This document shows, piece by piece, positions 3,232-51,557 of a DNA stretch of 64,000 bases. Source of the DNA: Thermoanaerobaculum sp. (lineage in GTDB: Bacteria; Acidobacteriota; Thermoanaerobaculia; Multivoradales; UBA5704); NCBI GenBank assembly GCA_021154885.1, contig JAJKHS010000144.1, positions 186,001 through 250,000 of the forward strand, in the 5' to 3' direction. Positions within the stretch are counted from its first letter, which is position 1. Each line of letters opens with the position of its first letter. The notes beneath the pieces were generated by a model. That model had not been told where the DNA came from. It saw nothing but the letters and a program-made list of their open reading frames with translations, and ran no database searches. Both the position numbers and the translations under genes were made by a program.

Positions 3232-3265
3232 GACTTCCTGCAACGGGCCGGAAAACCGCCGGAGC

Positions 3266-9325: not shown

Positions 9326-9743
9326 CCTCCCGCTCGTTGTCCCACAGGACGGACATCACCCACCAGCGGTCGCCGTCGTAGAAGAGTTGGATGCTGTTGA
9401 TGCCGCGGCCGAAGGGCTTCTCCTCCGGAGACTGGCGGGACTCGTAGGTGCTCCAGACGTGGGCGATGTTGCCGAAGCGCTCGACGCGGCGGCAGACCTC
9501 GGTTTCCCAGAAGGAGTTGGCAGCGAAGACGGGCGTGCGGGAGGCGATGTACCCCTCGGAGTCGAACACCTCGACCTCGGCGCCCCCCTCCGCCCGTGGC
9601 CGGGTGGGCATCAGCCGGACCTCGGGGTGGACCAGGGAGCGCTCCCGCGCCCAGTCCCGCTCGCCGGCCGGTCCGGACACCACCTCGTACAGGGCCTTGA
9701 CGATGCCCTCGATCGACTCCACGTCCTCTCGCTTCGCGTTCAT
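9285..9743 (-). CDS. NTF2/SnoaL-like domain protein
   Basis: 152 residues with the pattern of the cone-shaped NTF2-like fold: a long N-terminal helix (IEGIVKALYEVVSGP), VHPEVRLMPTRP, then strands VERFGNIAHVWSTYESR and INSIQLFYDGDRWWVMSVLWDNE. The family covers small isomerases, hydratases and ligand-binding proteins, so no reaction can be assigned. GAGGAG lies upstream of ATG 9743. It is 31 bp downstream of the secreted 500-residue protein and may be the last gene of that operon. Confidence 0.75.
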   Translation of the reverse strand: MNAKREDVESIEGIVKALYEVVSGPAGERDWARERSLVHPEVRLMPTRPRAEGGAEVEVFDSEGYIASRTPVFAANSFWETEVCRRVERFGNIAHVWSTYESRQSPEEKPFGRGINSIQLFYDGDRWWVMSVLWDNEREVNPLPRRYLRNGE

Positions 9744-9774: not shown

Positions 9775-11277
9775 TCACTGCCCTTTGGGCGTCTCCAACC
9801 CGCCGAGGTCGAACTTGAGACCCACGTGGGCGCTGAGCTGTTTGTTCACGTCTCCCAGGAACTCGCCGTGGTTGGCGTAGACGATCCCCAAGGGGACGGT
9901 GAGGTTGCCGAACTTGCGGGTGATTGTCAGAGTGGCAACTCCGCGGTCCTGGCGCTGGGGATCGTTGCTGACGTTCTCATAGCTCCCCACGAAATCCACG
10001 CGCATGGGCTGGTCCCCGCCCGCCGGATCCGCGAACAGGCGGCTCCAGCCGGCCGAGATGATCAGCTTTTTCGCGGCATCGATCTTGAGGCCGGTGAGAC
10101 CCTGACTCGGCAGATCGAACACCTCCTTGCCGATATTGAGGTACTCGGCGGAAAATGAGAACTTGTCGCCGTCTTTCAGGAGCTTCGCGTTCTGCGTAAC
10201 GTAGCTGGTGTACTGCTCCAGACACCGGTTGAGCGTGTCGTCGTCGATCTTGTCGGTCGACGGGGTGTCGAGGTCCTGCTGACACCTGCCACGCAGCGCG
10301 TTGTTGAGGTTTACCCTTGACCACTCATAGGTGAGCTTGCCGGAGGTCTCGTCGCCGCCGGCGACCTTGTCGCGGACCTTCTTCACGGCGGATAACGTGA
10401 GCTGCGGCTGGTTGTCAATCAGGCTGGCGAAGCTCTCGAGGCCGGCATCGGTGAACATCTGGCGCTTCACCGTCAGGGCTTCTGCCGTCCGAATGGCGGC
10501 GGTTTCGAATTTTTCGAGCGAGACTCCAAAATCGTCGGACCCGACCTGTCTGAGTATGTCGCCGAAGGTCGTGTTGTCCACTATCTGGAGATCCGGGTGC
10601 TTCAGACGAAGAGACTCGCCGAACTCGCCAATAGCGGCTAGCTTGACACTGTTGACGGGCATCGATTGGAATCGCCGTGCAATCGCCTCGTTCAGCGCCG
10701 CGAAGCGGTTTTCGTAGTTGTTGAAGCCGCGACCGTGGCTCTGATCGATCCAATCGAACGTATAGCTGAGAGAGTAGTCGGCGAGATCGCCCAAGCCCGC
10801 CTCGATCTTCTTGACCGCATCGTCGCGCTGGGCTTCCGGGATCTGTTGCTTGATGGCGGTCGCGACCTTCGGCTGGCTGTTGACGACGGCCTTGAGCTTT
10901 GAATTCTTGTCCTGCGCGAGGCCTGGGATCAGGAAGTTCAGATCGAAGGCATAGGTGCCGTTCGTGCCGATGTCCTTCGTGTCGCCGAGGAGGCCGGACA
11001 TCGCGATCAGGGGAAGGAAGTCGGTGGTGTTGGATTTGAGGTTGGAGCCGGTGGTCTGGATGCCGGTAGGCTTGGCGTGCAGGTCTGAAATCGTCTGCGC
11101 CTCCAACTCGACCTTCTCCGCCTGCAATGCTTGCTCCTGGTCCGCGGCCGGCATGGCTCGCGTCCAGCACTGGTCAGGGGTCTCGCCCATCAGGCACTTG
11201 ACCTCAGCGAGACATTCGGCGGAGACGCACACCATGAACAGTAGAAGCATCCCTGCGATTGCGGCCCTCGTATTCAT
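9775..11277 (-). CDS. Secreted protein of unknown function
   Basis: 500 residues beginning with a signal peptide (AAIAGMLLLFMVCVSAECLA). I do not recognise a family. The middle is largely helical and charged. The C-terminal ~150 residues alternate polar and hydrophobic residues in strand-like segments (FSFSAEYLNIG, LIISAGWSRLFA, MRVDFVGSYENVS, VATLTITRKFG, SAHVGLKFDLGG), which could form part of an outer-membrane barrel, although the protein ends with GLETPKGQ rather than an aromatic residue. Several cysteines near the mature N-terminus and around residues 330-345 could pair in the periplasm. It follows a small gene by 11 bp, so the two are co-transcribed. Confidence 0.65.
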   Translation of the reverse strand: MNTRAAIAGMLLLFMVCVSAECLAEVKCLMGETPDQCWTRAMPAADQEQALQAEKVELEAQTISDLHAKPTGIQTTGSNLKSNTTDFLPLIAMSGLLGDTKDIGTNGTYAFDLNFLIPGLAQDKNSKLKAVVNSQPKVATAIKQQIPEAQRDDAVKKIEAGLGDLADYSLSYTFDWIDQSHGRGFNNYENRFAALNEAIARRFQSMPVNSVKLAAIGEFGESLRLKHPDLQIVDNTTFGDILRQVGSDDFGVSLEKFETAAIRTAEALTVKRQMFTDAGLESFASLIDNQPQLTLSAVKKVRDKVAGGDETSGKLTYEWSRVNLNNALRGRCQQDLDTPSTDKIDDDTLNRCLEQYTSYVTQNAKLLKDGDKFSFSAEYLNIGKEVFDLPSQGLTGLKIDAAKKLIISAGWSRLFADPAGGDQPMRVDFVGSYENVSNDPQRQDRGVATLTITRKFGNLTVPLGIVYANHGEFLGDVNKQLSAHVGLKFDLGGLETPKGQ

Positions 11278-12341: not shown

Positions 12342-13043
12342 TTGTTCATCGGTCATTTCGCGCTCGGTTTCGGCGCCAAGAGAGCGGCTCCGGCGGTCTC
12401 TCTCGGCACGCTGTTCCTGGCGTGCCAGCTCGCCGACCTCCTGTGGCCGACCCTACTCCTCCTGGGGATCGAGGTGGTCAAGGTCCAGCCCGGCGACACC
12501 GCCGTCACTCCCCTGACGTTCGTCAGCTACCCCTACTCGCACAGTCTCGTGGCGCTGCTCGTCTGGGGAGCCGTCTTCGGAGCGGCCTACGTGCTGATCC
12601 GGAAATCGTCCGTCACGGCCGGCGTGGTGATCGGCGCCCTGGTGCTCAGCCACTGGGTGCTGGACGTCCTCACCCACCGGCCGGACATGCCGGTGACGGT
12701 CGGGGGGCCGGCGCGGCTCGGGCTCGATCTGTGGGATTCGTTGCCGGCGACGGTGGCGGTCGAGCTGCTGCTCTTCGCCGTGGGCGTGGGGCTCTATGCG
12801 CGGTTCACGGCGGCGCGCGACCGGCGGGGAACCTTCGGGTTCTGGGGGCTGGTCGCGTTCCTCCTGATCGTCTACTTCGTCAACCTGTTCGGCCCGCCGC
12901 CGCCCGGCGTCAACGCGGTCGCCTGGGGAGCGCAGGCCCTGTGGCTCCTGGTGATCTGGGGCTACTGGGTGGATCGCCACCGCCAGGTGCGGGCCCTGCC
13001 GCGCGCCACAGTCTTTCAGCCTCGCCGTCCCACCACGGTGTAG
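12342..13043 (+). CDS. YdjM-type membrane-bound putative metal-dependent hydrolase
   Basis: 233 residues; the start is TTG 12342, supported by AGGAGCGAGG immediately upstream. About six membrane helices. Conserved polar motifs within helices (FIGHFALGF, YPYSHSLVALL, LSHWVLDVLTHRPDMP) match the YdjM/LexA-regulated inner-membrane hydrolase family, whose His/Asp residues suggest metal binding. The reaction is unknown. The gene ends 28 bp inside the convergent methyltransferase gene. Confidence 0.75.
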   Translation: MFIGHFALGFGAKRAAPAVSLGTLFLACQLADLLWPTLLLLGIEVVKVQPGDTAVTPLTFVSYPYSHSLVALLVWGAVFGAAYVLIRKSSVTAGVVIGALVLSHWVLDVLTHRPDMPVTVGGPARLGLDLWDSLPATVAVELLLFAVGVGLYARFTAARDRRGTFGFWGLVAFLLIVYFVNLFGPPPPGVNAVAWGAQALWLLVIWGYWVDRHRQVRALPRATVFQPRRPTTV

Positions 13044-13843
13044 AGCCAGATGTCGCGGTCCACGTACCGCTGGGTGTGGAAGGAGACCCGGGTCGAGGGG
13101 AATCCCAGGATGCGCAGGAAGCGCGAGACCAGCCGCGGCGAGAGATACCACCAGGTTTCCCACGGGCTCTTCCGGTCGGGATCGGGATGGAAGGTCAGCG
13201 GCGGAATGACGGCGTCGGGGATCGCTTCCGGATCGTTGGTCAGGGGCGGCAGGAACTCGTTCCTGCGCGCGTCGAAGAAGCCGGGCACGAGCTCGGTCAC
13301 GATCATCGTCCCCGTGGTGAGGGCGGCGGCCTTCTGCAGCGCGAGAAACGGATCGCGCAGGTGGAGCAGGATGCTGCCGAAGGTGGCGATGTCGACAGGC
13401 CCGATCTCCTCGGGGATGGTGTAGGCCGTGCCGTGGACCAGCCGCGCCCGGGAGCCGAAGAGGTGATGGCTCAGCCGCCAGGCGTTATTGAGGCGGCCGA
13501 TGTGACGCCGGCGGTCCTGCTGGATCTCCGGATCGACGCGCCCACCGTAAGGCACGATGTCCCAGTCGTGCTCCGGCGACAGGTCGTAGGCCACCACCTC
13601 GGCGCCCCGCTTTTCCAGCTCGAAACAGAGGAAGCCGTTGGCCGTGCCGACCTCGAGCACGCGCCAGCCGGCGACGGGGACGTGCCCGAGGTAGGCGTCC
13701 ACGTTGTGGCGCAGGTCCCAGAGGCCGGGCTGGAAGCCGTGCACCGGCAGGTCGATCGAGTGGTAGAAGTGGCACTCGGCGAGCGCGGGGACGCCCTGGG
13801 GCGCGGCGGCGGGGGCGGACGGCGTGGCGACGATCGGTTCCAT
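13016..13843 (-). CDS. SAM-dependent methyltransferase, last gene of the glyco-operon
   Basis: 275 residues. After a disordered Ala/Pro N-terminus comes CHFYHSIDLP, then motif I RVLEVGTANGFLCFELEKRG, the acidic VVAYDLSPEHDWD, and VDIATFGSILLHLRDPFLAL. The layout (an N-terminal arm before motif I, long insert after motif II) resembles CmoB-like and sugar/natural-product methyltransferases. It follows the APH-type kinase by 36 bp on the same strand, so it most likely modifies the product of the same pathway, either a sugar or the end of a glycan chain. Confidence 0.8.
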   Translation of the reverse strand: MEPIVATPSAPAAAPQGVPALAECHFYHSIDLPVHGFQPGLWDLRHNVDAYLGHVPVAGWRVLEVGTANGFLCFELEKRGAEVVAYDLSPEHDWDIVPYGGRVDPEIQQDRRRHIGRLNNAWRLSHHLFGSRARLVHGTAYTIPEEIGPVDIATFGSILLHLRDPFLALQKAAALTTGTMIVTELVPGFFDARRNEFLPPLTNDPEAIPDAVIPPLTFHPDPDRKSPWETWWYLSPRLVSRFLRILGFPSTRVSFHTQRYVDRDIWLYTVVGRRG

Positions 13844-13879
13844 GGTTTCCTCCGGTTTCCTCCGAAAGGGTGAACGGTC

Positions 13880-14896
13880 CTATCCGGCGGCCAGCGCGCT
13901 CCGGATCGCCGCGAGGCCGCGCGCCGTCCTGTCCTCCGCCTCGGAGGGAGCGACGGGGATGCCGCTGGCGGCGTAGATCACGTAGGGCGCGACCTGCGTG
14001 TCGAAGACGGCAAAGGGCTTGAGGGTCTCGAAGCCGGCGCGGAACTCCGCCGTGAGCGGCGACCGCGTGAGGCGGCGCCAATGGCCGCCGTAGACGCTGA
14101 GCAGCAGGTCCTCCCCCTCGGCGGAGAGCCTCGCCCCCACGGCGTAGCGGGCGAGGTCGTATTGCGGCGGCGCCACCACGACCTCGCCGAGGTCGATGAG
14201 CAGGCAGGAGAGGACCGGGCCGTCGCGGTGGAACACGAGGTTGCCGCCCGCGACGTCGCCGTGCGCCAGCACCATGTCCTCCGGAGCGAAGCGCTCGGCC
14301 ATGGCCGGCCGCAGCGTGGCCAGCAGCTCCAAGGCCTCCCGCGCCTGGCGGGCGACCTCGTCGCACGGGCCGCCGCGGAGGGCGTCGCACATTCCGGAAA
14401 GGATCTCGGCGCCGCCGATCCAGAGGGTGTGCCCGCCGAGCGCCAGGGCCACCTCGAGGCCGAAGGGAGGGTGGGGCAGGCGCCAGGAGTGGGCGTGGAA
14501 GGCGGCGAGGGCCGCGGCAAAGGCGCTGATGGCCAGGGGGGAGCCGAGGGAGAGCGCCGGGCTGGAGGCGATGAAAGGGACGGCGAAGCCGGCCAGCTCT
14601 CCGTCCTCCGCGAAGTCCGCGAAGGTGAGACGCAGCTCGGGGACGACGCCCGTGGGCGCCAGGGCGGTGAGCGCGCCCGCCTCGCGCCGCAGCATCTCGC
14701 GGGCCTCGCGGTCTTCCCGCCCGGCGTGCTTGACCACCAGCGGGCCGCCCTCCTCGCCGGTCCACAGCCAGACGCCGGGATGCCCCGGGAACGGCTGGCT
14801 CAGCGGCTCCAGGCCGTCGCCGGGCTGACCGGGCCGCCCCGCCCGGACCCGTGCGAGAAGCCGCGTTGCCGCGTCGACCTCGGCGAGAGCGGGCAT
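13880..14896 (-). CDS. APH-type phosphotransferase (sugar or small-molecule kinase)
   Basis: 338 residues from ATG 14896, which overlaps the stop of the preceding GT2 by one base (TGATG). The kinase core shows VVKHAGREDREAREMLRREAGAL (ATP-lysine strand and Glu helix), catalytic VLAHGDVAGGNLVFH (the HGDxxxxN loop) and metal-binding LLIDLGEVVVAPPQYDLA. It belongs with choline/aminoglycoside kinase-like enzymes. In this operon it probably phosphorylates a sugar or a glycan end before methylation; antibiotic resistance is unlikely given the context. Confidence 0.82.
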   Translation of the reverse strand: MPALAEVDAATRLLARVRAGRPGQPGDGLEPLSQPFPGHPGVWLWTGEEGGPLVVKHAGREDREAREMLRREAGALTALAPTGVVPELRLTFADFAEDGELAGFAVPFIASSPALSLGSPLAISAFAAALAAFHAHSWRLPHPPFGLEVALALGGHTLWIGGAEILSGMCDALRGGPCDEVARQAREALELLATLRPAMAERFAPEDMVLAHGDVAGGNLVFHRDGPVLSCLLIDLGEVVVAPPQYDLARYAVGARLSAEGEDLLLSVYGGHWRRLTRSPLTAEFRAGFETLKPFAVFDTQVAPYVIYAASGIPVAPSEAEDRTARGLAAIRSALAAG

Positions 14897-15576
14897 CAGG
14901 CACCCACCGCCGCCAGGGCCGGGAGGAGCCCCGCCCAGGTCCGAAAGAAGTGCTCGCTGTTGCTCTCGTAGGTCGAGGAGCGGAAGAGGTGGCGGTGGTA
15001 GACGGTGACGGCGCCGTTGAGCAGGCCGCGAAAGCCGAGGCGCCGCAACCGCAGGTAGTAGTCGAGGTCCTCCCACTGGCAACTGCCATAGCCGGGGTCG
15101 AAGCCGCCCGCCGCCTCCAGAGCGTCCCGCCGCACCAGCAGGCAGGTCGAGGGGAGGGCGAACGGCTCGCGGATGGCGCGGAAGCGGCCATCGTCCTCGT
15201 CGCCATAGCCGATGGGGAGGAAGCTCGACGGCGGGCGGTGCTCGATGCCGCAGCAGAAGATGCGCCCATCCTCCAGCTTCAGCTTGGGCCCCGCCATGGC
15301 CACGCGGTCGCCCCGCGTCACCAGCTCCAGCAGGCCCGTGCACCAGCCCGGCGTCACCCAGGCGTCGTCGTCGAGGAAGCAGACGAACGGCGCCGTGGAG
15401 CGGGCCAGCGCCCGGTTGCGGTTGACGGCGGCGCTGTCGAACGAGCGCTCGACGAGCACGCGATGGGGCTCGGCCGTGAAGCCGCGGATCGACTCGCAGC
15501 ACAGCTCGAGCTGGTCGGCCGAGCCCGCGGCCCCCAGCCAGGAGGCGATGACGACGTCAACGAGCGGCTCAGTCAT
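14896..15576 (-). CDS. GT2 family glycosyltransferase
   Basis: 226 residues, a compact GT-A domain: VDVVIASWLG at the N-terminus, NRNRALARSTAPFVCFLDDDAWVTPGW carrying the DDD metal motif, and CQWEDLDYYLRLRRLGF, the ED-containing helix with the likely catalytic base. No membrane helix. The start overlaps the end of the GT2-PIG-L gene by 8 bp and its stop overlaps the kinase start, so it is translated as part of the same unit. Confidence 0.87.
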   Translation of the reverse strand: MTEPLVDVVIASWLGAAGSADQLELCCESIRGFTAEPHRVLVERSFDSAAVNRNRALARSTAPFVCFLDDDAWVTPGWCTGLLELVTRGDRVAMAGPKLKLEDGRIFCCGIEHRPPSSFLPIGYGDEDDGRFRAIREPFALPSTCLLVRRDALEAAGGFDPGYGSCQWEDLDYYLRLRRLGFRGLLNGAVTVYHRHLFRSSTYESNSEHFFRTWAGLLPALAAVGA

Positions 15577-17383
15577 GGCCGGCCTCCACGGTCCACAGTC
15601 GCTCGCTGCGGCTCCCTCTCGTATCCTGGCTGGAGAACGGCGCCTGGCCTGCCTGCTCCACGGCGCAGAGGAAGCTGTCGTCCATCTGCGAGGCGTAGAG
15701 GCCGAGCAGCTCGGTCTTCTCGTCGAACCAGGGGGTGACGTCCACCGGCCGCGGGCGCAGGGTCAAGCCCTGCCGGGCGTAGAGCTCCAGCCCCGAGCGC
15801 ACGGCCCGCGGCTGCGTCGCATAGGGAAGGTCGTCGTAGACCAGCACGCGGTCCGGCGGATAGCCGCGCGCGAGGAGGACGGTCACGGCGCGGGCGACGA
15901 CGGCGTGGTCGGCCATCAGCCCCGCCGCCAGGGGCGCGAGCAGCAGGGGGAGCTCGGAGCCGCAGCCGGCGAGCCGGGACTCCATGGCGGCCACCACGGG
16001 GCCGACCAGCTCCTCCTCCACCTCCTCGGGGCCGCGCAGGAAGATGGGCGCCGCGGGCTGCCTCACCAGGCGGTCCGGCAGCGGCTCGATGCTGAAGGCG
16101 GCGCCGGCCCTGGCGCACCAGGCCGCCTCTTCGAAGGCCCGCACGAAGCTCGCCCCGGCCACGTCCAGCCCCTCCAGCAGACCGGTCGAATGCCGGCTGC
16201 GGCCGAACAGCACGTGCACCCGGGTGCGGGCCCCCGCCTGTCGCCGCGCCAGGAGGAGCCCACCCACCGAGAGGGCTGCGTCGTCGGCGTGAGGCGCGAA
16301 GACCTCCACCGGCAGACCGAAGGCTGGTGGCGAGCTGGCGGCAGGAGGCTGCACGTCCAGGAAGTCGACGAAGGCGAGGCCGCGGGTGTAGAGCCGCCGG
16401 TAGGCCTCCAGCTCGTCGTGACCGAGGTCGAGCCGGCCATCGGCCGCCAGCACCGTCTCCACGTCGCGGCGCACCGCCGCGTCCGCCAGCAGACGGGGCC
16501 GGACCAGGCCATTGAGAGGCGTCAGACGGCCGAGGTGGGGGATCAGCCGCGGCCGCCAGGCACGGCGGGACTTCATGCCGCGCACCGCCCACCGCCGCTC
16601 GTCGCGGCCGATGGGCAGCCCGCCCGGGAACCACTTGCGGCAGTAGCTCTCGCGGTCCGCCTGCAGGCGCATCAGCCCCGGTCCCTCCATCAGCCGCGTG
16701 CTCTGGTGGCGCCGGTGCAGGACGCGGCTCGCCGGCTCGTACCAGACGGCGAATCCCGCGAGGTTGGCGCGGCAGCCGTAGTCCGTGTCGCTGAAGTAGT
16801 TGCGGAAGCGGGGGTCGAGCTCGCCCACCTCTTCCCAGGCGTCGCGAGCGACGAGCGCGATGCCGAAGCTCACCCATTCGAGCGGCTCCGGCGTCTGCAG
16901 GTCGCCCGCCCGCAGGCTCCCCGTGCGATCGAGGCGCAGGAGACTGGTCAGCTCGCCCCGCGCAAAGAGCGGGCGGCTGCCGCCGCAGACGATGCGGTCC
17001 GGATCGTCCGGGTCGAGCTCCATGCCGCCCACCAGGCCGACCCGGCTCTCGCAGCGCCAGCGGGCCACGAGGGCGTCGAGCCAGCCGGGCCGCACCTGCA
17101 TGTCGGAGTTGAGGAGCACGCAGGCCTCGTGCTCCGGGAAGACGGCGCTTAAGCCCTCGTTCACCGCCGCCGTGAAGCCCCCTTGACTGGGACGGGTGAG
17201 GAGGACGTCGACCGGGAAGCGCGCGGGCAGGTCGCCGAGGCCGCCCGGCGTGCCGTCGTCGATCAGCACCAGCCGGTAGGGGGTCCGGTCGCGAACCTCC
17301 GTCAGGCTGCGCAGGCACTCTTCGAGGCACGGCAGCGCGCCGTGGACGGGGATGAGGACGGCGATACGGGGCGGCTCGTTCAT
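15569..17383 (-). CDS. GT2 glycosyltransferase fused to PIG-L-type deacetylase
   Basis: 604 residues from ATG 17383. Residues 1-270 are a GT2 domain (VLIPVHGALPCLEECL, LIDDGTPGG, LLNSDMQV as DxD, FSDTDYGCRANLAG). Residues 355-550 are a PIG-L/LmbE-like domain: VEVFAPHADDAALSVGGLL carries the zinc motif at 365-368 as HADD (usually HPDD), and LMADHAVVARAV near 490 supplies the third ligand. PIG-L enzymes remove acetyl groups from N-acetylglucosaminides, so one polypeptide may transfer an amino sugar and then deacetylate it. The gene overlaps both neighbours (4 bp upstream, 8 bp downstream). Confidence 0.85.
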   Translation of the reverse strand: MNEPPRIAVLIPVHGALPCLEECLRSLTEVRDRTPYRLVLIDDGTPGGLGDLPARFPVDVLLTRPSQGGFTAAVNEGLSAVFPEHEACVLLNSDMQVRPGWLDALVARWRCESRVGLVGGMELDPDDPDRIVCGGSRPLFARGELTSLLRLDRTGSLRAGDLQTPEPLEWVSFGIALVARDAWEEVGELDPRFRNYFSDTDYGCRANLAGFAVWYEPASRVLHRRHQSTRLMEGPGLMRLQADRESYCRKWFPGGLPIGRDERRWAVRGMKSRRAWRPRLIPHLGRLTPLNGLVRPRLLADAAVRRDVETVLAADGRLDLGHDELEAYRRLYTRGLAFVDFLDVQPPAASSPPAFGLPVEVFAPHADDAALSVGGLLLARRQAGARTRVHVLFGRSRHSTGLLEGLDVAGASFVRAFEEAAWCARAGAAFSIEPLPDRLVRQPAAPIFLRGPEEVEEELVGPVVAAMESRLAGCGSELPLLLAPLAAGLMADHAVVARAVTVLLARGYPPDRVLVYDDLPYATQPRAVRSGLELYARQGLTLRPRPVDVTPWFDEKTELLGLYASQMDDSFLCAVEQAGQAPFSSQDTRGSRSERLWTVEAGHD

Positions 17384-18540
17384 GAGGCCCTCGCGAGGAT
17401 CTCGCCATGCAGGGCGTCGATCCTGTTCACGGCGCCCTCGGCGGTCAGCTCCTCGGGCAGAACGCGGCCCGGACGGGGCTCCCAACGGCTGGCGAGCCCG
17501 GCAATGACCTCGACCAGATCGGGGCCCGGCCGCTCCCAGGCGTCGTCGGCGACGAGGTGGCCGCCGAGCCGGGGAATGGTGTCCAGGTGGCCGCCGACGG
17601 CCGAGGCGAGGACCGTCGTCCCCTGGGCGGCCGCCTCCACCGCGAGGAGACCGAACGCCTCGTAGCGCGACGGGCAGAGGACGACGTCGACCGCCTTGAG
17701 GAGGGCGAGGAAATCCGGCTCGGAGAGGCGTCCCAGGCTGCGGATGGCGCCGCGGATGGCGGCCGGCGTCTCCGAGGCGCGGAGGTCCGTGCCCACCAGC
17801 CGCACGGGCAGTCCCCGCTGCCACAGCGCGGCAGCCAGAGCGCAGGCGCGATCTCCCCCCTTGACCCGGTCGCCCAGGCGGCCGCCCATGAACAGGACGA
17901 TGGCGCCGTCGGGGGAGATCAGGCGCCGCCAGTGCAGCACCCGCTCCGGATCGACCTCCCGGGTCTCGGTGCCGTTGTGGATGAGGGCGTCGGGCGCGAG
18001 GGGGAGGAAGGCCCGCCGGTAGTAGTCCTGCTCGGCGCGGGAGGTGGTGATCACCGCCGAGCTGACGCCGCACTGGAGCGCCTGCAGGTCGTGGAAGAGC
18101 CGGACGGCGAACGACGGCATGCCGGACGCGGCGAGGTAGGGCCCCATGAGAATGAGGAGGTGAGTGACGCCGGGGATGCCCGCCTCGTCCAGGAAGTCGC
18201 GCAGCACGTCGGCGTAGAGGAACCCCCCCACGTCGTGCACGAGGTCGAAGCCGTGCCGCCGGTGCAGCTCGCGCACGAAGGGGAGCACCTGGCGCCGCCG
18301 CTCCTCGAAGGCCCCGGCGTTCCACCCCCGCTCGACGAGCCGCCGCCGGTGGACCCGCACCCGGCCGTCCCGCGACGCCTCCTCCAGAGCCGGATCCGAC
18401 GCCACGACGTGGACCTCGTGGCCACGGGCCGCGAGGCCGCGGGCGAGCGTGCGCGTATAGTTGCCGGCGCCGCCCGGGTGGCGCGGCGGGTAGGGCTCCG
18501 AGAGCAGAAGCAGGCGCCGCCGGCGCGCCGGACGGCTCAT
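17380..18540 (-). CDS. GT4 family glycosyltransferase
   Basis: 386 residues from ATG 18540. The N-terminal Rossmann domain shows LLLSEPYPPRHPGGAGNYTRTLARGLAARGHEV, the donor domain shows ALIHNGTETREVDP, VLFMGGRLGDRVKGGDRA and the EX7E region CPSRYEAFGLLAVEAAAQGTTV. This is a retaining GT-B enzyme using an NDP-sugar, presumably the one activated by the next-upstream nucleotidyltransferase. ATGA overlaps link it to both neighbours. Confidence 0.9.
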   Translation of the reverse strand: MSRPARRRRLLLLSEPYPPRHPGGAGNYTRTLARGLAARGHEVHVVASDPALEEASRDGRVRVHRRRLVERGWNAGAFEERRRQVLPFVRELHRRHGFDLVHDVGGFLYADVLRDFLDEAGIPGVTHLLILMGPYLAASGMPSFAVRLFHDLQALQCGVSSAVITTSRAEQDYYRRAFLPLAPDALIHNGTETREVDPERVLHWRRLISPDGAIVLFMGGRLGDRVKGGDRACALAAALWQRGLPVRLVGTDLRASETPAAIRGAIRSLGRLSEPDFLALLKAVDVVLCPSRYEAFGLLAVEAAAQGTTVLASAVGGHLDTIPRLGGHLVADDAWERPGPDLVEVIAGLASRWEPRPGRVLPEELTAEGAVNRIDALHGEILARAS

Positions 18541-19289
18541 GGTCGCACCCCGACGAAGGGTTCCACGAAGAGCCCTGGATTGCTGGCGAAGGCCGCGGCG
18601 GCGCGCTCGTACTGCGGCCAGTCGCCGACGTCGAACCAGGTCCCGGCGTGCTCGAAGACCGCCACCCGCCCCCCGCCCTCCCGCACCCGGCGCGCCAGCT
18701 CCGGCATGTCGATCCGCTCGCCGGGCACCACCGCGCCGACCGCGCGGGGGCCGGCCACGTAGATGCCGGCGCTTACCAGCCGGCAGAGCGTCTGGCGCTC
18801 CGACCACCCCTGGAAGCCCGTCTGCTCGTCCGTCTGCAGCGAGCCGTAGGGAAGGGTCTGCACGTGGCGCACGCCGGCGATCGTCAGGTCGGCCTCCTCG
18901 CGGCGGTGGCAGGCGAGCAGGTCCGCCCAGCGCAGGTCGGTGAGCACGTCGGCGTTGCAGACGATCGTGGTCTCGGCCTCGGCGGGGAGCAGCCCCATGG
19001 CTCCGGCCGTGCCCAGCGGCTCGTCCTCCTGCAGGCAGGCGCAGTGGATCCCCTCCTGCTCCTCGAGGTTGCGCAGGTAGACCCGGATGAGCCGCGCCAG
19101 GTAGTTCAGGGCGACGAAGATCCGCGGCACGCCGGCGGCGAGCAGTTGCCGGACGAGGATCTCCAGCATCGCCCTCTCCCCGAGCGGGATCAGCGGCTTG
19201 GGGATCGAGAAGGTGAACGGCTGGAGGCGCAGGCCGCGCCCGCCGGCGAGGATGAGGGCGCGCGGGAGCTCGCCGCGGGAGGTGCTCAT
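18537..19289 (-). CDS. NDP-sugar pyrophosphorylase (nucleotidyltransferase)
   Basis: 250 residues. The signature ALILAGGRGLRLQPFTFSIPKPLIPLGERAMLEI matches GalU/RmlA/ManC-type sugar-1-phosphate nucleotidyltransferases (GGxGxRLxPxT...PK). NADVLTD supplies the metal-binding Asp, and WFDVGDWPQYERA ends the core. There is no C-terminal hexapeptide domain, so it is a single-function activating enzyme. The sugar and base (GDP, dTDP, UDP) cannot be settled; pairing with a GDP-mannose-4,6-dehydratase-like SDR makes GDP or dTDP possible. Confidence 0.88.
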   Translation of the reverse strand: MSTSRGELPRALILAGGRGLRLQPFTFSIPKPLIPLGERAMLEILVRQLLAAGVPRIFVALNYLARLIRVYLRNLEEQEGIHCACLQEDEPLGTAGAMGLLPAEAETTIVCNADVLTDLRWADLLACHRREEADLTIAGVRHVQTLPYGSLQTDEQTGFQGWSERQTLCRLVSAGIYVAGPRAVGAVVPGERIDMPELARRVREGGGRVAVFEHAGTWFDVGDWPQYERAAAAFASNPGLFVEPFVGVRP

Positions 19290-20296
19290 GAGGCCACCGC
19301 CAGTGTCTGCGGGGTCTGCGGGGTCCGCGGGGTCTGCGGCGCCAGGGCCCGCATGGACTGCACCACCCGCTCCAGCCCCTCCTCGAAGCTCACCGCCGGC
19401 GCCCAGCCCAGGAGCGCCTGCGCCTTGGCGGCGTCGCCCACCAGCTTCCAGACCTCGGCCCGCGGATGGCGCGCCCGCTCCTCGCGCATCCGGATGCGCA
19501 GCGGCCGGCCGACGAGCCGGCCCACGGCGCGGACGATGGCCTCGACGTCGAGGCCCACACCGGTCGCGAGGTGGAGGGTCTCGCCCTCGATCCCCTCGAC
19601 CGTGCCGGCGGCGAGCATCCCCGCCGCGGTGTCGGCGACGAAGACGAAGTCGCGCACCGGCTTGAGATTGCCGAGCTCGATCTCGTCGCCGGCCAGCGCC
19701 TGCTTCACCACCCAGGGGATCACGGCGCGCAGCGACTGGCGCGGCCCGAACGTGTTGAAGGGCCGCACCACCACGGCGCCCAGGCCGAAGGTGTGGAAGT
19801 AGGCCTGCGCCATCTTCTCGGCGGCGATCTTCGAAGCCGCATAGGGGGAGCGGGCGCAGAGGGGGTCCTCCTCCCGCAGCGGCCGGTCGCCGGTGCCGCC
19901 ATAGACCTCGCTGCTGGAGATGACGACCACCCGCTCGACGCCGAGGTCCAAGGCGGCCTGCAGCACGTTCTGGGTGCCCAGGCCGTTGGTCTGGAGGAAG
20001 AGAGCGGGGGCGCGCATGGAGTAGGGGACGTTGATCTGGGCCGCCAGGTGAAAGACGGTGTCCGCCGCGCCCAGGGCCGCCCGCAGGTCCTGGGGATCGA
20101 GGACGTCGACGAGCTGGACGTCGACCTGTCGCCGGACCTCCGGCGACAGGAGATCGAGGTTGCCCAGCCGGTGCTCCGAGTTGGAGCGGGCCAGGGCCCG
20201 CACCCGCACCCCCTGCCTCACCAGCAGCTCGACGAGGTGGCTGCCAATGAAGCCGGAAGCGCCGGTGACCACGGCTTCGCGAATGGGTCTGCTCAT
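19286..20296 (-). CDS. NAD-dependent sugar epimerase/dehydratase (extended SDR)
   Basis: 336 residues. NAD-binding VTGASGFIGSHLVELL, catalytic SSSEVYGG and YAASK (Tyr and Lys), and substrate loop RPFNTFGPRQSLRAVIPW identify an extended SDR acting on an NDP-sugar. It probably makes the dehydrated or epimerised sugar used by the operon's transferases. The C-terminus is an odd TPRTPQTPQT tail encoded by a 9-bp tandem repeat (19303-19337), probably disordered. The gene begins 18 bp after the stop of the repeat protein. Confidence 0.88.
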   Translation of the reverse strand: MSRPIREAVVTGASGFIGSHLVELLVRQGVRVRALARSNSEHRLGNLDLLSPEVRRQVDVQLVDVLDPQDLRAALGAADTVFHLAAQINVPYSMRAPALFLQTNGLGTQNVLQAALDLGVERVVVISSSEVYGGTGDRPLREEDPLCARSPYAASKIAAEKMAQAYFHTFGLGAVVVRPFNTFGPRQSLRAVIPWVVKQALAGDEIELGNLKPVRDFVFVADTAAGMLAAGTVEGIEGETLHLATGVGLDVEAIVRAVGRLVGRPLRIRMREERARHPRAEVWKLVGDAAKAQALLGWAPAVSFEEGLERVVQSMRALAPQTPRTPQTPQTLAVAS

Positions 20297-20314
20297 GGCC
20301 TTGGCCCCGTCCGC

Positions 20315-20911
20315 CTAGCGGCTCTCGCCGTCCGGGAGGTCGCGCGGGCTCGCCGCGTTGAGATAGGCGGCGTTGAGGTCCTCGGGCCGCGCCGCGGTGA
20401 GATACGCGGCGTTCAGGTCCTGAGGCCGGGCGCCCGTCAGATATGCCGCGCTGAGGTCCTGGGGATGAGCGGCGTTGAGATAAGCGGCATTGAGGTCCTG
20501 GGGACGGGCGGCGTTGAGGTAGGCGGCGCTGAGGTCCTGGGGATGGGCCGCCGCCAGGTACGCCGCGTTGAGATCCTGCGGTTGCGCCGCGGTCAGATAG
20601 GGAGCGCTCAGGTCTTCCGGCCGCGCGGTGGCGAGATAGGCGGCGTGCCCGCCGGCGGCCCCGAGGAGACCCGCGGCGGCGCGGTTCTGGAAGTCGTCCA
20701 GGTTGCGGTCGAGGACGACCCGCGCGTGATGCAACCGCAGCACCAATTCCTGATAGGCGGCGCTCGTGGTGTCGATCGAAAGGTTTTGATCGTGAATCAG
20801 CCCTTCGAGATCGGCGAGCAGGGCGCCCGCCACCTTGGGGTTCTGCCGCGCATAAGCCACCAGAGTCGCCAAGTCATCCTGCCGCGTCGCGTCCTTCTGC
20901 TCATCGCTCAT
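20315..20911 (-). CDS. Repeat protein: helical N-domain plus eight 13-residue repeats
   Basis: 198 residues with AAGGAG 8 nt before ATG 20911. Residues 1-88 are polar and helical (LATLVAYARQNPKVAGALLADLEGLI) and end in GLLGAAGG. Residues 90-193 are eight near-perfect repeats of consensus AAYLNAARPQDLN, with Tyr, Leu, Pro and Asp-Leu invariant or nearly so, and the last residue mainly Ser or Asn. No signal peptide and no cysteine. It is the first gene of the operon with sugar-activating enzymes, three glycosyltransferase domains, a deacetylase, a kinase and two-carbon or methyl modification enzymes. It could be a scaffold, an acceptor that is glycosylated on the repeats, or a multi-core peptide precursor with a GG leader end. 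I know no matching family. Confidence 0.8.
   Translation of the reverse strand: MSDEQKDATRQDDLATLVAYARQNPKVAGALLADLEGLIHDQNLSIDTTSAAYQELVLRLHHARVVLDRNLDDFQNRAAAGLLGAAGGHAAYLATARPEDLSAPYLTAAQPQDLNAAYLAAAHPQDLSAAYLNAARPQDLNAAYLNAAHPQDLSAAYLTGARPQDLNAAYLTAARPEDLNAAYLNAASPRDLPDGESR
20333..20644 (-). repeat. 39-bp tandem repeat, eight units, coding
   Basis: Eight in-frame units of 39 bp encode the 13-residue repeats. Units differ mainly at the third codon position and at two variable residues, while Tyr-Leu, Pro and Asp-Leu codons are kept. That pattern points to amplification followed by selection on the protein rather than to a neutral minisatellite. Confidence 0.9.
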
Positions 20912-21004
20912 TTTCGGTCTCCTTGTGAGTCGTCGAGAAGACCGCTAGCGCAAGGCCTGTGCCACAGGCGGCTCCCAGGGAGCGGCGTGAAGAAAGGCGG
21001 CCGC

Positions 21005-21036
21005 TGACGTGTCGATGACACGTCGGCGACACGTCA
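21005..21036. promoter_or_regulatory. Inverted repeat TGACGTGTCG...CGACACGTCA
   Basis: Perfect 10-bp inverted repeat arms enclose another GACACGTC copy, giving three ACACGTC/GACGTGT elements in 32 bp. It lies ~95 bp upstream of the repeat-protein start and ~35 bp past the end of the glucan locus. It could be an operator of the glyco-operon or part of a terminator; no T-tract follows on either strand, which favours a protein-binding site. Confidence 0.4.
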
Positions 21037-21072
21037 GGACCTGGATTTCGTCGGGTTGGAGCTATCCCGGAG

Positions 21073-22038
21073 TCACTGCTCCGCCGGCACCACGCCCGGG
21101 ATCACCACCGGGCGCTTCTCCCGGCCGCTGAAGTCGGAGAAGATCGTCTCCTGCTTCTTTCCCTTCGGCACGATGACGTCGATCAGCGGCGGCTGGTTGG
21201 CCGCGTTCTCGCGGCCGCCACCGAAGCGGTCCTGCCAGTTGCCCGGCGAGACGGGCATGATCATCAGCGACTTCAGCTCCTCTTTCCGGCTCAGCAGCGA
21301 GCGGCTCGGGTCGTACGTCTGGAGCAGGTCGCAGCCGGAGGAGGCGACGACATAGGCCCAGGTGGATTTGGCGATGCCGCCCAGGAAAAGGGCCGGCACG
21401 AAGAAGCTGATCTTCTGGCCGAGGACCCGGACCTGGGTGGGGAAGAAGATCCGCGACTCGATGTCCAGCGGGATCTGCTTCTTGAGCGCTTCGACCTCCT
21501 CGTCCTTGAGCCCGTTGTTGCGCCTGGAGTCCTCGTTCAGGGTCCGCATGAGCATCCGCTGGAGCTCCGATTTCGCCTCGTTCGGCCGGGGGGTGAGGAC
21601 GATGGCCTTCTCCCAGGCGGTGGCGGGATCGATCTCGGCTTGGCGGCCCGGCAGCATGGTGACGCCGCCCGAGCCCGGCACGCGATCGGTGTCGATGTAG
21701 ATGTCGAGGTTCAGGTTGTAGAAACCATAACGGGCCACGTCGCTGAGCTGGGTGCCGAGCTCGTCGATGGCCTCCCGCTGCGGCTTCTTGACCGGCCTGG
21801 CGAAAGTCACCTCGAAGCGGGTGCCGTTGCCCTCGTCGTAAGCTTCGAAGGAGAGGATGTCCAGATCGCCCGGCTCGAGCCGGCGGTTGCCCGGGTAGAC
21901 GTAGTTGCCGTCGCCGTGGTCGTCGCCCCGGGGATCGGTGAGCGTGAAGATCGGCTTTTTCGCCGCGGCGGGCGCGGCGAAAAGAGCTGCGACGACGAAG
22001 GCGGCCAGGAGGTGGATGTGGATACTGCTGATTCGCAT
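21073..22038 (-). CDS. Secreted glucodextranase C-terminal (DOMON-like) domain protein
   Basis: 321 residues with a signal peptide (HIHLLAAFVVAALFAAPAAA). The mature start FTLTDPRGDDHGDGNYVYPGN...LEPGDLDILSF matches the DOMON-like C-terminal domain of glucodextranases and pullulanases, which binds starch-like chains. A ~100-residue variable part follows. It is the last gene of the alpha-glucan locus, 56 bp after the outer-membrane barrel gene, and is a paralogue of the protein at 24334-25161. It probably holds glucan in the periplasm or on the surface next to the barrel. Confidence 0.78.
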   Translation of the reverse strand: MRISSIHIHLLAAFVVAALFAAPAAAKKPIFTLTDPRGDDHGDGNYVYPGNRRLEPGDLDILSFEAYDEGNGTRFEVTFARPVKKPQREAIDELGTQLSDVARYGFYNLNLDIYIDTDRVPGSGGVTMLPGRQAEIDPATAWEKAIVLTPRPNEAKSELQRMLMRTLNEDSRRNNGLKDEEVEALKKQIPLDIESRIFFPTQVRVLGQKISFFVPALFLGGIAKSTWAYVVASSGCDLLQTYDPSRSLLSRKEELKSLMIMPVSPGNWQDRFGGGRENAANQPPLIDVIVPKGKKQETIFSDFSGREKRPVVIPGVVPAEQ

Positions 22039-22094
22039 AACATCTCCAAAAACGAAGACGGGCGGCAGAGCAAGCCCTGCCGCCCTCCGCTGCT

Positions 22095-24299
22095 TTAGAA
22101 CCGGACCTTCATGAACGCCTTGAGGCGGTTCTGGGTGAAATCCCGTTTGATCAGGCTGTTCCAGCCGCCGAAGCGGCCGCGGAATCCGGGCGAGCCCACC
22201 GGCACCCCGAAGTCCTTGGAGATCTGATCGTCGGCGAACTGCGTGACGAAGCCGCCGCCGAAGTTGGGATCGAAGGTGCCGAAGTTGTACTCGTAGTTCA
22301 AGCCGAACTCGGCCCCGCCGAGGGTGTACTTGGCGGCCAGGATGAGCTTGTTCTTCTGGCTCTTGCCCGACGCCATATTGTGGAGCTGGTAGGCCTGGAA
22401 GGCGGTGTCGCCGTCCTTCAAATCGACGTCGTAGTACTCGAAGGTCAGCGAGGTGTAGAGGTCGCCCGTGAGCTGATAGCCGGTGCCGACCTGGAACATC
22501 TTGTAGTTCATGTCCTTGTCGTCGTCGGACAGGCTGTCGAAAGGTTTCCACTGATAGCCGGTGACGCCGTTGACGGTGATCACCGGCGGGTTGCCGTAGA
22601 TGGCCGACGTCGAGTTGCCGTTGCCGTTGTAGGGGTTGACGCTGTTGTGGCAGGCGACACCGCCGCCCGGACAGTCGCCGGGCTTGTAGGGGAGGAAGCG
22701 GGCGTCGTTCATCCGCTTGTCGGTCTCTTTGATGTATTTGACCTTGCCGAAGAGGTCGACCCCCTTGCCGGCGTCGATCACGGTCTTGCCCCTGAGCACG
22801 TAGAGGTCGGTCTTCTTGTCCTGGAACGGCGCGTAGGCGTTGCGGTAGGAGCCGATGCCGGCGTCGGACTCGAAGTTGGGATAGATCGAGTTGTCGATCG
22901 CCTTGTTGGGAAAGCCCCAGGCCTGCCAGTTGGTGTTGTAGTCGATGTGGGTGAGCTCGGCGGCGAGGTCCCACTTGCCGACCGTCCAGGTGGGGACGAC
23001 GGTGATGCCCTTCCAGCCGATCACCGTCTCGGCCATGGGCTCGTCGAAATCCGTGAACTCGTTGTCCACGCTGAGAGTGGCCACCTGCTGGGCGTTGCCC
23101 TCGAAGCCGCCGTAGCCGATGCGGGTGGGGTTGCCCGGGAAGACGCCGAACGCCGAGTTGTCCGGACCGGGGAAGACCCAGGCGCCGTCGTGGCCCTCGG
23201 TCAGCAGCACGTCGGACTCGCGGCGGGCGGACAGGATCGATTCATATTGGGCGCCGATGTTGAAGTATTCGAGGTTGAACGACAGGCCGATGCCGAACGG
23301 ATCGTTCAGGTCGACGTTCGCCTTGTAGGCCGGATCGCTGATCTTGCCGGCCGGCGTCGGCGAGAAGCCGGAGGTGCCGAAGCCGGTGGGCACGCCGAAG
23401 CGCGGGTCGGACTCGGCCGACGAGTGGTAGTACTGGCCGCGGACGTCGACCTTGCTCGACGGATGGATGCCGAAGCGCACGCCGTAGACGTCGTTCTTGA
23501 AGCGGTCGGCGACGCTGGTGCCGTTGTCGAAGTTGCGGTCCGTGGGATCGATCTCGAGGTCGCGGACGCGCTCGACGACGCCCACCACGTCGAAGATCGG
23601 TGCCGGGGCGAGCTTGAGCTGCAGGCCATAGGCGCCGTCCTGGCCGGTGTAGTCGCCGGTGTTGAAGTTCGGGCCGGCAAACAGCCGCGGCAGCGAGACG
23701 CGGATGAAGTCGTAGCCGAGCTTGCGGTCGAAGATCGAGCCCTGGAACAGGATGGCCTTGGCGTTGTCGCGGTCGATGTAGCGGATCTTGCCGATGGTGA
23801 ACGGATCGAACATGCCGAGGTCGGTCGAGCCGATGGTGGCGCTGTCCAGCCACTTGAAGCCCGGCGTGAAGCGGGCCGTCAGGCCGCGTATCTTGATGTA
23901 TTCGTTCGACCGCGGATCGAATTCGCCGCAGTCGCCGCCCAGGCAGGGCTGCGGATTGTTCTCGAAAGCCGGATTGCGGCCGCCGAAGCCGCCGTAGTTC
24001 GTCCACTGGTTCTGGTTGAACCGCGACTGCAGGCGGCCCTGGACCTCGACGTACTTGTTGGGCTTGGAGAACAGGTAGAGGTCGATCTCCGTGCCCTGGC
24101 CGTTGTCGCCGTAGCCCTCATTGGGGATGGTGGTGAAGTTGTAGACGCTGCCGTCCGTGTGCTGGGTGCCCCAGAGCCACTTCGTGTAATCCTCACCGGT
24201 GATGACCATCGTCTGGCCGTCCACGGCGAACGCCGGCACGGAGGCCAGCGCTGCCGCCGCGGCCAGCAAGCCGATCGCGAACCCTCTTGAAAATCTCAT
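22095..24299 (-). CDS. Outer-membrane beta-barrel protein of the glucan locus
   Basis: 734 residues with a signal peptide ending near VPAFA and a C-terminal ...NRLKAFMKVRF, the terminal-Phe signal of outer-membrane barrels. Alternating amphipathic strands with Tyr/Trp girdles run throughout (YKMFQVGTGYQLTGDLYTSLTFEYYDVDL). No TonB box or plug domain is evident, so it looks like a large porin rather than a SusC-type receptor. It lies between two DOMON-like protein genes downstream of a maltose-type ABC transporter, which points to uptake of maltodextrins across the outer membrane. The family is otherwise unnamed to me. Confidence 0.75.
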   Translation of the reverse strand: MRFSRGFAIGLLAAAAALASVPAFAVDGQTMVITGEDYTKWLWGTQHTDGSVYNFTTIPNEGYGDNGQGTEIDLYLFSKPNKYVEVQGRLQSRFNQNQWTNYGGFGGRNPAFENNPQPCLGGDCGEFDPRSNEYIKIRGLTARFTPGFKWLDSATIGSTDLGMFDPFTIGKIRYIDRDNAKAILFQGSIFDRKLGYDFIRVSLPRLFAGPNFNTGDYTGQDGAYGLQLKLAPAPIFDVVGVVERVRDLEIDPTDRNFDNGTSVADRFKNDVYGVRFGIHPSSKVDVRGQYYHSSAESDPRFGVPTGFGTSGFSPTPAGKISDPAYKANVDLNDPFGIGLSFNLEYFNIGAQYESILSARRESDVLLTEGHDGAWVFPGPDNSAFGVFPGNPTRIGYGGFEGNAQQVATLSVDNEFTDFDEPMAETVIGWKGITVVPTWTVGKWDLAAELTHIDYNTNWQAWGFPNKAIDNSIYPNFESDAGIGSYRNAYAPFQDKKTDLYVLRGKTVIDAGKGVDLFGKVKYIKETDKRMNDARFLPYKPGDCPGGGVACHNSVNPYNGNGNSTSAIYGNPPVITVNGVTGYQWKPFDSLSDDDKDMNYKMFQVGTGYQLTGDLYTSLTFEYYDVDLKDGDTAFQAYQLHNMASGKSQKNKLILAAKYTLGGAEFGLNYEYNFGTFDPNFGGGFVTQFADDQISKDFGVPVGSPGFRGRFGGWNSLIKRDFTQNRLKAFMKVRF

Positions 24300-24333
24300 G
24301 GGAATCTCCTCTCTTCGACCCGAGGACTCGTCT

Positions 24334-25161
24334 CTACTTCTTCTTGTAAACCATCTTCACGGCGCCGCCCGATTTGCGGGTGCCGTCCGGGTTGCACTCG
24401 TACTTCAGCCACTGATGCTGGAGCTCGGCCTCGTCAGGGGTGCCGTTGCCGTTGCCCGCCAGGATGTCCATGACGTGCGGGTCGCAATCGGAGTCGGTGC
24501 CGCCGCCGAAGCGGTGCTGCCCCTCGTACTCGTTGACCTTGCGGGTCATGAGGTCCTTGCCCTCGGGGAAGCCCTCGTTGGACTGGATCGCCACCTGGTA
24601 ACCCCAGGTGGACGGGTCGCCCGCGCCGAGCTGGTCGAGGTCGACGGTGGCGCTGATCGTCCGGCCGGCGCCTTTGACGCGGGTCGGAATGATGACCGCC
24701 GACTGCTCGCCCGGCGCCACTTTCGCTTCGACCTCGGTCTTCACCCGGCCGGGGGCCTGCGGCGAGAGGACCACCAGCTTGTTCCACTCATTGCCCTCCG
24801 CGAAGCCGAGGTTGAGTCCCGGCGGGCTGTCCTTGAAGCCGCCGTCGCCGGTCTTGATGAAGATGAACACCTGCTGCACGGAGAACCCGGTGCCCATGCG
24901 CCACGGGTCCTCCAGCGTCACGTTGAAGGTGACGTCGAATTCCACCTTCTTGCCGCTGACCTTGACGTCGAAGCCCGTCAGGTCGAACGAGCCGCGCTTG
25001 TAGACGCCGTCGGTCGGATACGTGTAGTTGCCCGGCCCGTTGTCGTCGCCGACGGGGTCCTTGAACGATACGCCGCTCTGCGCGAGCGCCGCACCGGCGA
25101 GCAGCACGCCGGCCGCGACCGTCGCCGCGATCGCTCCCGTTGTCCAGAATTTCTTGCTCAT
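24334..25161 (-). CDS. Secreted glucodextranase C-terminal (DOMON-like) domain protein
   Basis: 275 residues; signal peptide ending AGAALAQ. FKDPVGDDNGPGNYTYPTDGVYKRGSFDLTGFDV is the conserved start of the DOMON-like alpha-glucan-binding domain, followed by EFDVTFNVTLEDPW. Toward the C-terminus there are two cysteines around residues 225-255 and a Lys-rich end. Position: 27 bp after malG and 34 bp before the barrel gene. It is probably a glucan-binding partner of the porin or of the substrate-binding protein. Confidence 0.8.
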   Translation of the reverse strand: MSKKFWTTGAIAATVAAGVLLAGAALAQSGVSFKDPVGDDNGPGNYTYPTDGVYKRGSFDLTGFDVKVSGKKVEFDVTFNVTLEDPWRMGTGFSVQQVFIFIKTGDGGFKDSPPGLNLGFAEGNEWNKLVVLSPQAPGRVKTEVEAKVAPGEQSAVIIPTRVKGAGRTISATVDLDQLGAGDPSTWGYQVAIQSNEGFPEGKDLMTRKVNEYEGQHRFGGGTDSDCDPHVMDILAGNGNGTPDEAELQHQWLKYECNPDGTRKSGGAVKMVYKKK

Positions 25162-25188
25162 GAGATCAACCTCCTTGTGGTTGGGCTT

Positions 25189-28073: not shown

Positions 28074-28077
28074 GGCG

Positions 28078-29310: not shown

Positions 29311-29328
29311 GCAGAAATCTCCTGTCAG

Positions 29329-51493: not shown

Positions 51494-51557
51494 CTTTTCC
51501 AGGACCCCGAAAGGTCCGATAGAATCCGGCCATCTGACCTGGGGAGATTGAAGAGCG

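Follow-up and report, generated by a model that had tools for sequence, protein, structure and literature searches.

In the 64-kb stretch of Thermoanaerobaculum sp. DNA analysed here (64,000 nt; the window), an operon of eight genes is headed by the gene for a 198-residue protein with eight 13-residue repeats, and seven genes for enzymes of glycan chemistry follow it on the same strand (Table 1). The repeat array is clearly coding, is not a product of chance and encodes a peptide under selection. Tentatively, the operon is read as a cytosolic one that may build a deoxy-aminosugar glycan, with the repeat protein as its possible acceptor; this reading is offered as possible rather than probable, and the proposed functional link between protein and sugar is drawn solely from position in the operon. 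The combination of an orphan repeat protein with a glycan operon is novel as far as the searches reach, each enzyme being of a known kind. The sequence-only reading, an earlier inspection of the same DNA, had likewise been aware of no described system so composed, and nothing contradicting it was met among the papers listed for the open-access literature, as far as titles and the starts of abstracts tell.

The repeat protein

All eight units lie in register at residues 90-193, and Tandem Repeats Finder (TRF) recovered the array from the DNA alone (39-nt unit, 7.6 copies, score 242), in agreement with the eight repeats first proposed for the head of the operon. Positions A1, Y3, L4, A7, P9, D11 and L12 are invariant in 8/8 units, position 13 reads S,N,S,N,S,N,N,P from unit 1 to unit 8 and position 5 reads A,T,A,N,N,T,T,N. 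The motif AAYLxAAxPQDL[SN] given by the sequence-only reading stands as a consensus and is not exact in every unit: unit 2 has P at position 2, units 1 and 6 have T or G at position 6, units 1, 7 and 8 have E or R at position 10, and unit 8 ends in P. The region before the repeats closes in GG (residues 87-88), as had been noted. Self-similarity of the array is slightly higher at period 26 (60/78, 0.77) than at period 13 (66/91, 0.73), and the best 40-residue stretch of the protein gives 35 and 32 matches, respectively, because units 3-6 alternate H..S and R..N.

Between the units, the proportions of synonymous (pS) and nonsynonymous (pN) change are 0.64 and 0.16, giving pN/pS = 0.25 in the coding frame, an exact value that carries little meaning with synonymous change near saturation. 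None of 2000 simulations, in which an equal number of changes was placed at random on the consensus, reached so low a ratio, and the repeat peptide is therefore clearly selected, while each of the remaining five frames has either pN/pS > 1 or stops. Judged by their DNA, the units are old.

No credible family was found for the repeat protein in Pfam, NCBIfam or PHROGs, its Protein Data Bank (PDB) matches were no better than E 0.67 and 0.68, and its own genome holds no second copy at E 10. A SoxL2 match of the repeats (E 0.0016) was rejected as chance (17.5 bits, cut-off 582.1). In low-confidence AlphaFold2 (AF2) models, helices appear in the N-terminal region and, in the repeat-only model, at an exact spacing of 26 residues.

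Two alternative roles for the protein are bound up with these features. In the first, the product of the enzymes would be a common type of glycan, lipid-linked or of the cell surface, finished by genes elsewhere, and the protein would be a soluble scaffold or regulator whose helical repeats bind the enzymes. The units do look structural, with invariant Leu, Tyr, Pro and Asp and with S or N at a possible helix N-cap, and the 26-residue spacing of the modelled helices recurs as the slightly better period of self-similarity; however, a model confidence near 50 makes the helices weak evidence, and the operon products include no membrane or transport partner. This role is judged somewhat unlikely. 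In the second, the protein would be a multi-core precursor of a ribosomally synthesized and post-translationally modified peptide (RiPP), whose leader is cut after GG and whose eight or four cores are released and glycosylated. Helices in the N-terminal region, GG and then repeats of equal length would suit such a precursor, but LLGAAGG before the cleavage point fits poorly to what we take to be the double-glycine leader consensus, and no RiPP precursor or leader family matched in Pfam or NCBIfam at E 1 or better. Among the eight operon products there is also no radical S-adenosylmethionine (SAM), YcaO, LanM, ATP-grasp, protease or exporter family, and lanthionine-synthetase matches are limited to sub-threshold LanL/LanKC scores of the APH-type kinase. 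Because no RiPP modifying, protease, exporter or leader family matches these products, this role, one of three offered by the sequence-only reading beside acceptor and scaffold, is weakened and now appears highly unlikely.

Relatives of the repeat protein were sought in overlapping sets of 97, 147 (class) and 395 (phylum) other genomes, the last with the leader only as query. Its own match was the only one in the class set of 148 genomes; it was joined by one chance match among 98 relatives and by five in the 396 phylum genomes, and the protein was not found in GTDB contigs, viral contigs, plasmids or phages, the GTDB-contig and viral-contig scans depending on exact 8-residue words. The match among the 97 other genomes (L002, E 0.0013) was rejected as lying opposite a longer, better-coding frame, and the five leader matches (E 0.0013-0.0089) as lying inside open frames of 509-851 residues; at the loci examined, the frames over the leader matches hold no repeats (best self-similarity at most 16/40, against 35/40 for the query). 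All six extra matches are treated as chance, judged by frames rather than by protein identity. In a phmmer control with randomly diverged ungapped copies, which covers the scoring step and not the tools' first-look filter, 30/30 full-length, 26/30 leader and 28/30 repeat copies were scored at 30% identity, and 30/30, 21/30 and 20/30, respectively, at 25% identity.

The enzymes and a possible pathway

The successive gaps from the repeat gene through the seven enzyme genes are 18, -4, -4, -4, -8, -1 and 36 nt. Families, motifs and gaps agree with the earlier description of seven coupled genes encoding a short-chain dehydrogenase/reductase (SDR), a nucleotidyltransferase, a GT4 glycosyltransferase, a GT2-PIG-L fusion, a second GT2, an APH-type kinase and a methyltransferase. 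The proteins carry the motifs that we take to mark their families, namely GxxGFIG and YxxxK for the SDR, LAGGxGxR for the nucleotidyltransferase, E-x7-E for GT4, PHADD and DH for PIG-L and HGDxxxGN and IDLG for APH; in the PIG-L domain of the fusion, an alanine follows DH where, in the motif as we presume it, a glutamate stands. The nearest solved relatives are mannose-1-phosphate guanylyltransferases for the nucleotidyltransferase and a TDP-glucose dehydratase for the SDR, whereas no solved structure matches the APH protein at E 0.1. The C-terminal tail of the SDR is TPQ-rich and is encoded by a 9-nt tandem repeat at window positions 19305-19339, and the start of the methyltransferase gene is preceded by a duplicated GGAGGAAACC.

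Peak 19-residue hydropathy of the eight operon products ranges from 1.09 to 1.76; the two peaks above 1.6 fall within the APH and PIG-L domains, and therefore no membrane span is convincing in any of the eight. Pfam detected no flippase, polymerase or lipid-priming (phosphoglycosyl) transferase family among them. Of the roles first offered for the repeat protein, that of a cytosolic acceptor fits an operon of glycan chemistry whose products show no convincing membrane span.

Table 1. Features of the operon and of its upstream boundary (window coordinates)
Feature	Position	Strand	Details
SAM-dependent methyltransferase	13016..13843	-	weak Pfam match, 27.7 bits vs 27
APH-type kinase	13880..14896	-	HGDVAGGN, IDLG; APH Pfam 55.8 bits
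Short GT2 glycosyltransferase	14896..15576	-	Pfam, NCBIfam
GT2 glycosyltransferase fused to PIG-L (LmbE-like)	15569..17383	-	PHADD, ADH; PIG-L 27.3 bits vs gathering score 28.2
GT4 glycosyltransferase	17380..18540	-	Pfam; E-x7-E present
Sugar-1-phosphate nucleotidyltransferase, mannose-1-phosphate guanylyltransferase/MurU-like	18537..19289	-	Pfam NTP_transferase, LAGGxGxR; 4-nt overlap with SDR gene
SDR, LegB-like nucleoside diphosphate (NDP)-sugar 4,6-dehydratase	19286..20296	-	GASGFIG, YAASK; TIGR04180 317.4 bits
Repeat protein, 198 residues	20315..20911	-	ATG start; residues 1-88 N-terminal region, eight 13-residue repeats at 90-193
Array of eight 39-nt units	20333..20644	-	13 residues each; units 3-6 alternate in pairs
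Shine-Dalgarno-like AAGGAG	20919..20924	-	good; precedes repeat gene
Inverted repeat	21004..21037	-	11-nt perfect arms, 12-nt loop; between Glucodextran_C gene and repeat gene

With this parts list, which would suffice to activate, dehydrate and add sugars and to deacetylate and methylate the product, all in soluble form, a possible pathway can be drawn, in which the order of the enzymes and the kind of sugar are suggested by family knowledge. The APH-type kinase may provide a sugar-1-phosphate, and the nucleotidyltransferase and dehydratase would produce the activated sugar; the predicted donor, again from what is known of the families, is a 4-keto-6-deoxy-(N-acetyl)hexosamine of guanosine diphosphate (GDP) or uridine diphosphate (UDP). 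The three glycosyltransferases would then assemble a chain, from which the PIG-L domain could strip an N-acetyl group and which the methyltransferase may cap, so that the product would be a modified oligosaccharide, probably 6-deoxy and amino-containing, made in the cytosol. The repeat protein, the sole candidate protein acceptor within the operon, could serve as a multi-site carrier of this glycan, with the first sugar placed on the conserved Tyr or on the Thr/Asn/Ser positions (Tyr3 in 8/8 units, S/N at position 13 in 7/8, T/N at position 5 in 6/8); its role as acceptor and the residue used are matters that we infer only. In a stronger form of this proposal, the glycan assembly would be templated by the protein, whose eight (or four 26-residue) acceptor units would receive a deoxy-aminosugar chain built, deacetylated and methylated by dedicated cytosolic enzymes with neither a lipid carrier nor a membrane step; this form is considered doubtful.

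If the repeat protein does carry the glycan, a protein acceptor would be genetically packaged with its own sugar pathway and without a lipid carrier, an arrangement that would be useful for understanding site choice by cytosolic transferases and for glycoprotein engineering. A scaffold would represent a dedicated organizer of glycan enzymes, and a protein that is neither would leave an ordinary glycan operon next to an orphan gene.

Comparison with known systems places the parts in several contexts. The SDR-nucleotidyltransferase module (LegB dehydratase plus nucleotidyltransferase) is shared with nonulosonate clusters of the legionaminic acid type, but the SDR lies under the TIGR04180 cut-off (317.4 against 475 bits), and in the 64-kb window tblastn at E 1e-10 matched none of NeuB, DegT aminotransferase, Epimerase_2, cytidylyltransferase and PglD. 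The operon thus appears to use the first two steps of the nonulosonate type, NDP-sugar formation and 4,6-dehydration, and to omit those that lead on to a nonulosonate. The pairing of an APH-type kinase with a MurU-like nucleotidyltransferase recalls the AmgK-MurU salvage pathway, AmgK being, as we take it, an APH-family enzyme; however, the nucleotidyltransferase scores 82.5 bits for MurU against a cut-off of 250, and the anomeric sugar salvage pathway of AmgK and MurU is not known to include glycosyltransferases. The kinase matches APH in Pfam (55.8 bits), and the NCBIfam matches listed for it include no AmgK-named model. GT4, GT2, PIG-L, methyltransferase and sugar-nucleotide genes are also found in Wzx/Wzy clusters, a context in which a relative of the PIG-L domain apparently occurs (locus L104, read by eye), whereas flippase, polymerase and priming transferase were not found among the eight operon products.

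A further comparison is with cytosolic protein glycosylation, for which the families NGT/HMW1C, flagellin Maf, GtfA/B of serine-rich repeat proteins (SRRPs) and EarP are known. The operon resembles these systems in its soluble enzymes, the lack of a flippase and the presumed protein acceptor, and SRRPs are repeat-bearing acceptors as well; no NGT/HMW1C, Maf, GtfA/B or EarP family is present among the Pfam and NCBIfam matches listed for the seven enzymes. A likeness to the mycofactocin system is seen in MftF, which is the top NCBIfam model for both GT2s, scoring weakly and lending something to the RiPP precursor, and in the presence of a methyltransferase (compare MftF and MftM), all scores being far below cut-off. 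In contrast to that system, no MftA, MftB or radical SAM MftC is among the matches listed for the eight operon proteins, and the presumed substrate is the 198-residue repeat protein. The mycofactocin literature describes MftF as a GT2 that oligoglycosylates a ribosomal-peptide product, the RiPP cofactor mycofactocin, and as predicted to carry a membrane helix (PMC7491314). MftF may be regarded as the nearest functional parallel met for a GT2 acting on a peptide-derived substrate, by analogy and not by family membership.

Distribution and weighing of the evidence

No full-length relative of the GT2-PIG-L fusion was found in 94 other genomes or in the GTDB contig scan; at E 1e-10 it matches 75/95 genomes (its own included) with matches beyond its own locus ending by residue 304, and its C-terminal half matches 1/395 other genomes. 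The APH kinase has no match in 58 other genomes at E 1e-8, and the methyltransferase matches 2/58 genomes at E 1e-15, neither in a similar operon, although the L043 relative has a GT2 nearby. The SDR matches 2/94 genomes at E 1e-50 and at least 26/395 at E 1e-60, the latter count being a lower bound with at most five candidates scored per genome. Its nearest relatives are 38-48% identical. Of 27 SDR loci, 17 have a nucleotidyltransferase no more than 1.5 kb away, and 16 of these 17 were compared for their neighbourhoods. Ten of the 16 encode NeuB, among them L088, the source of the NeuB query, which on profiling resembles a full nonulosonate cluster; an eleventh, at a contig end, has an aminotransferase and an epimerase, and the remaining five have none of the nonulosonate genes. 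Genes flagged as repetitive in L054 (period 35, 18/40) and L082 (period 18, 19/40), at a flag threshold of 18, were set aside as having other periods. In L086 (5981-17360), which was profiled too, NeuB/nonulosonate genes and the SDR-nucleotidyltransferase pair are immediate neighbours of MotA, MotB and a gene of flippase type, an arrangement that suggests flagellin glycosylation in that genome.

In none of the 16 loci did a 13- or 26-residue repeat protein appear among the called genes (neighbour genes were called by a heuristic on G+C at third codon positions (GC3), minimum 240 nt, which performs poorly on L089 and L090, two loci of low GC). This result counts against the acceptor and the scaffold alike, the scaffold gaining from the sugar clusters in which the relatives of the pair lie, one with a flippase-type gene; it is in favour of a third alternative, in which the repeat gene is an orphan that by chance precedes a glycan operon unrelated to it, as is the fact that no conserved association can be shown. 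Against such a chance neighbour stand the 18-nt gap, the shared strand and the probable start of a new transcription unit at the repeat gene, as well as the three nearest genomes, where repeat protein and APH kinase are both missing; together these suggest joint gain or loss, and a chance placement is considered unlikely.

The cytosolic glycan operon with the repeat protein as possible acceptor is supported by the tight coupling of the genes, five of whose junctions in a row are overlaps, and by the good Shine-Dalgarno sequence of the repeat gene. Also in its favour are the enzyme families with their motifs, the strong selection on the repeat peptide, the candidate acceptor residues of every unit, the lack of flippase, polymerase and priming families and of convincing membrane spans among the eight products, and the distribution in the nearest genomes described below. 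Other observations weigh against it. The invariant residues also suit a structural helical repeat, with a possible helix cap at the S/N position, and AF2 gave no confident fold (mean predicted local distance difference test score, pLDDT, 49 for the full protein and 50 for residues 88-198), so that the repeats may equally be structural. No homologue is available to show the repeat protein and the enzymes travelling together, and the SDR-nucleotidyltransferase pairs of other genomes belong to sugar clusters, nonulosonate or otherwise, that have no repeat protein. The only PIG-L relative, L104, is in an apparent exopolysaccharide cluster, as judged by eye from open reading frames (ORFs). None of the glycosyltransferases reaches the cut-off of a known protein-modifying transferase, the matches listed being generic GT2/GT4 with all NCBIfam scores below cut-off, and the two GT2s score 59.6 and 51.4 bits for MftF against a cut-off of 280. 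Flippase and polymerase genes could also sit elsewhere in the genome, the search having covered the operon products.

The three nearest genomes, two of the same genus and one of the same family (93, 82 and 90% complete), indicate how the operon is distributed among close relatives. DNA matching the window resumes upstream at 21076 in G001 and 21080 in G003, at most 7 nt from the stop codon of the preceding Glucodextran_C gene at 21073, so that synteny with one same-genus and one same-family genome stops there; the G002 match starts at 23220, where its contig ends, and G002 is uninformative on the site. Past this edge, 3.4 kb in G003 (part of it N) and 0.7 kb in G001 have no match to the window, and at this site the same-family genome lacks the stretch starting with the repeat gene. 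Searches of the three genomes found no repeat protein and no APH kinase, as would be expected of genes that are gained and lost jointly. Another G003 contig holds a 402-nt match to 9330-9731, and a short SDR match on a third (E 3e-6) is expected for so common a family. Given where synteny stops, the operon and perhaps further sequence are accessory in this family, whether by gain or by loss, the upstream edge of the non-syntenic stretch being the one mapped. The G+C content of the operon, about 0.74, is equalled elsewhere in the window, and composition is therefore no sign of foreign origin.

Upstream boundary and other features of the window

A 161-nt gap containing the inverted repeat (Table 1) parts the operon from a sugar ATP-binding cassette (ABC) transporter gene cluster upstream, and a new transcription unit probably starts at the repeat gene. 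The inverted repeat is a possible terminator of the upstream gene; a terminator scan with a loop limit of 8 did not list it. The transporter cluster (21073-30426) encodes two Glucodextran_C proteins and, between them, a 734-residue protein without a Pfam match, and parts of 21076-26617 match all three of the nearest genomes; the genes for the binding protein and the ATPase lie outside this comparison. On the other side of the operon, a gene at 9775-11277 encodes a protein of 500 residues that has no Pfam match and whose N-terminus, judged by eye, looks like a signal; no match was found for it in the three nearest genomes, in a search without a positive control, and the non-syntenic stretch that holds the operon may include this gene too.

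Other repeats of the window include two arrays of 9-nt units at 51329-51495, the first of CAGGGACAA type and the second of TGTCCCTGC type, which are inverted copies of each other; positions 51320-51500 fold as a single long hairpin (DNA -64.1 kcal/mol, z -8.86) shortly before an ORF starting at 51558. A tandem array at 47828-48072 has units of about 21 nt, with higher orders of 63 and 84 nt, and contains CTCATCCGAGTTG and CATTCGCGGATTGA elements. At 2458-5128, a further GT2 gene adjoins that of a membrane protein of the PMT_2 type, similar to mannosyltransferases.

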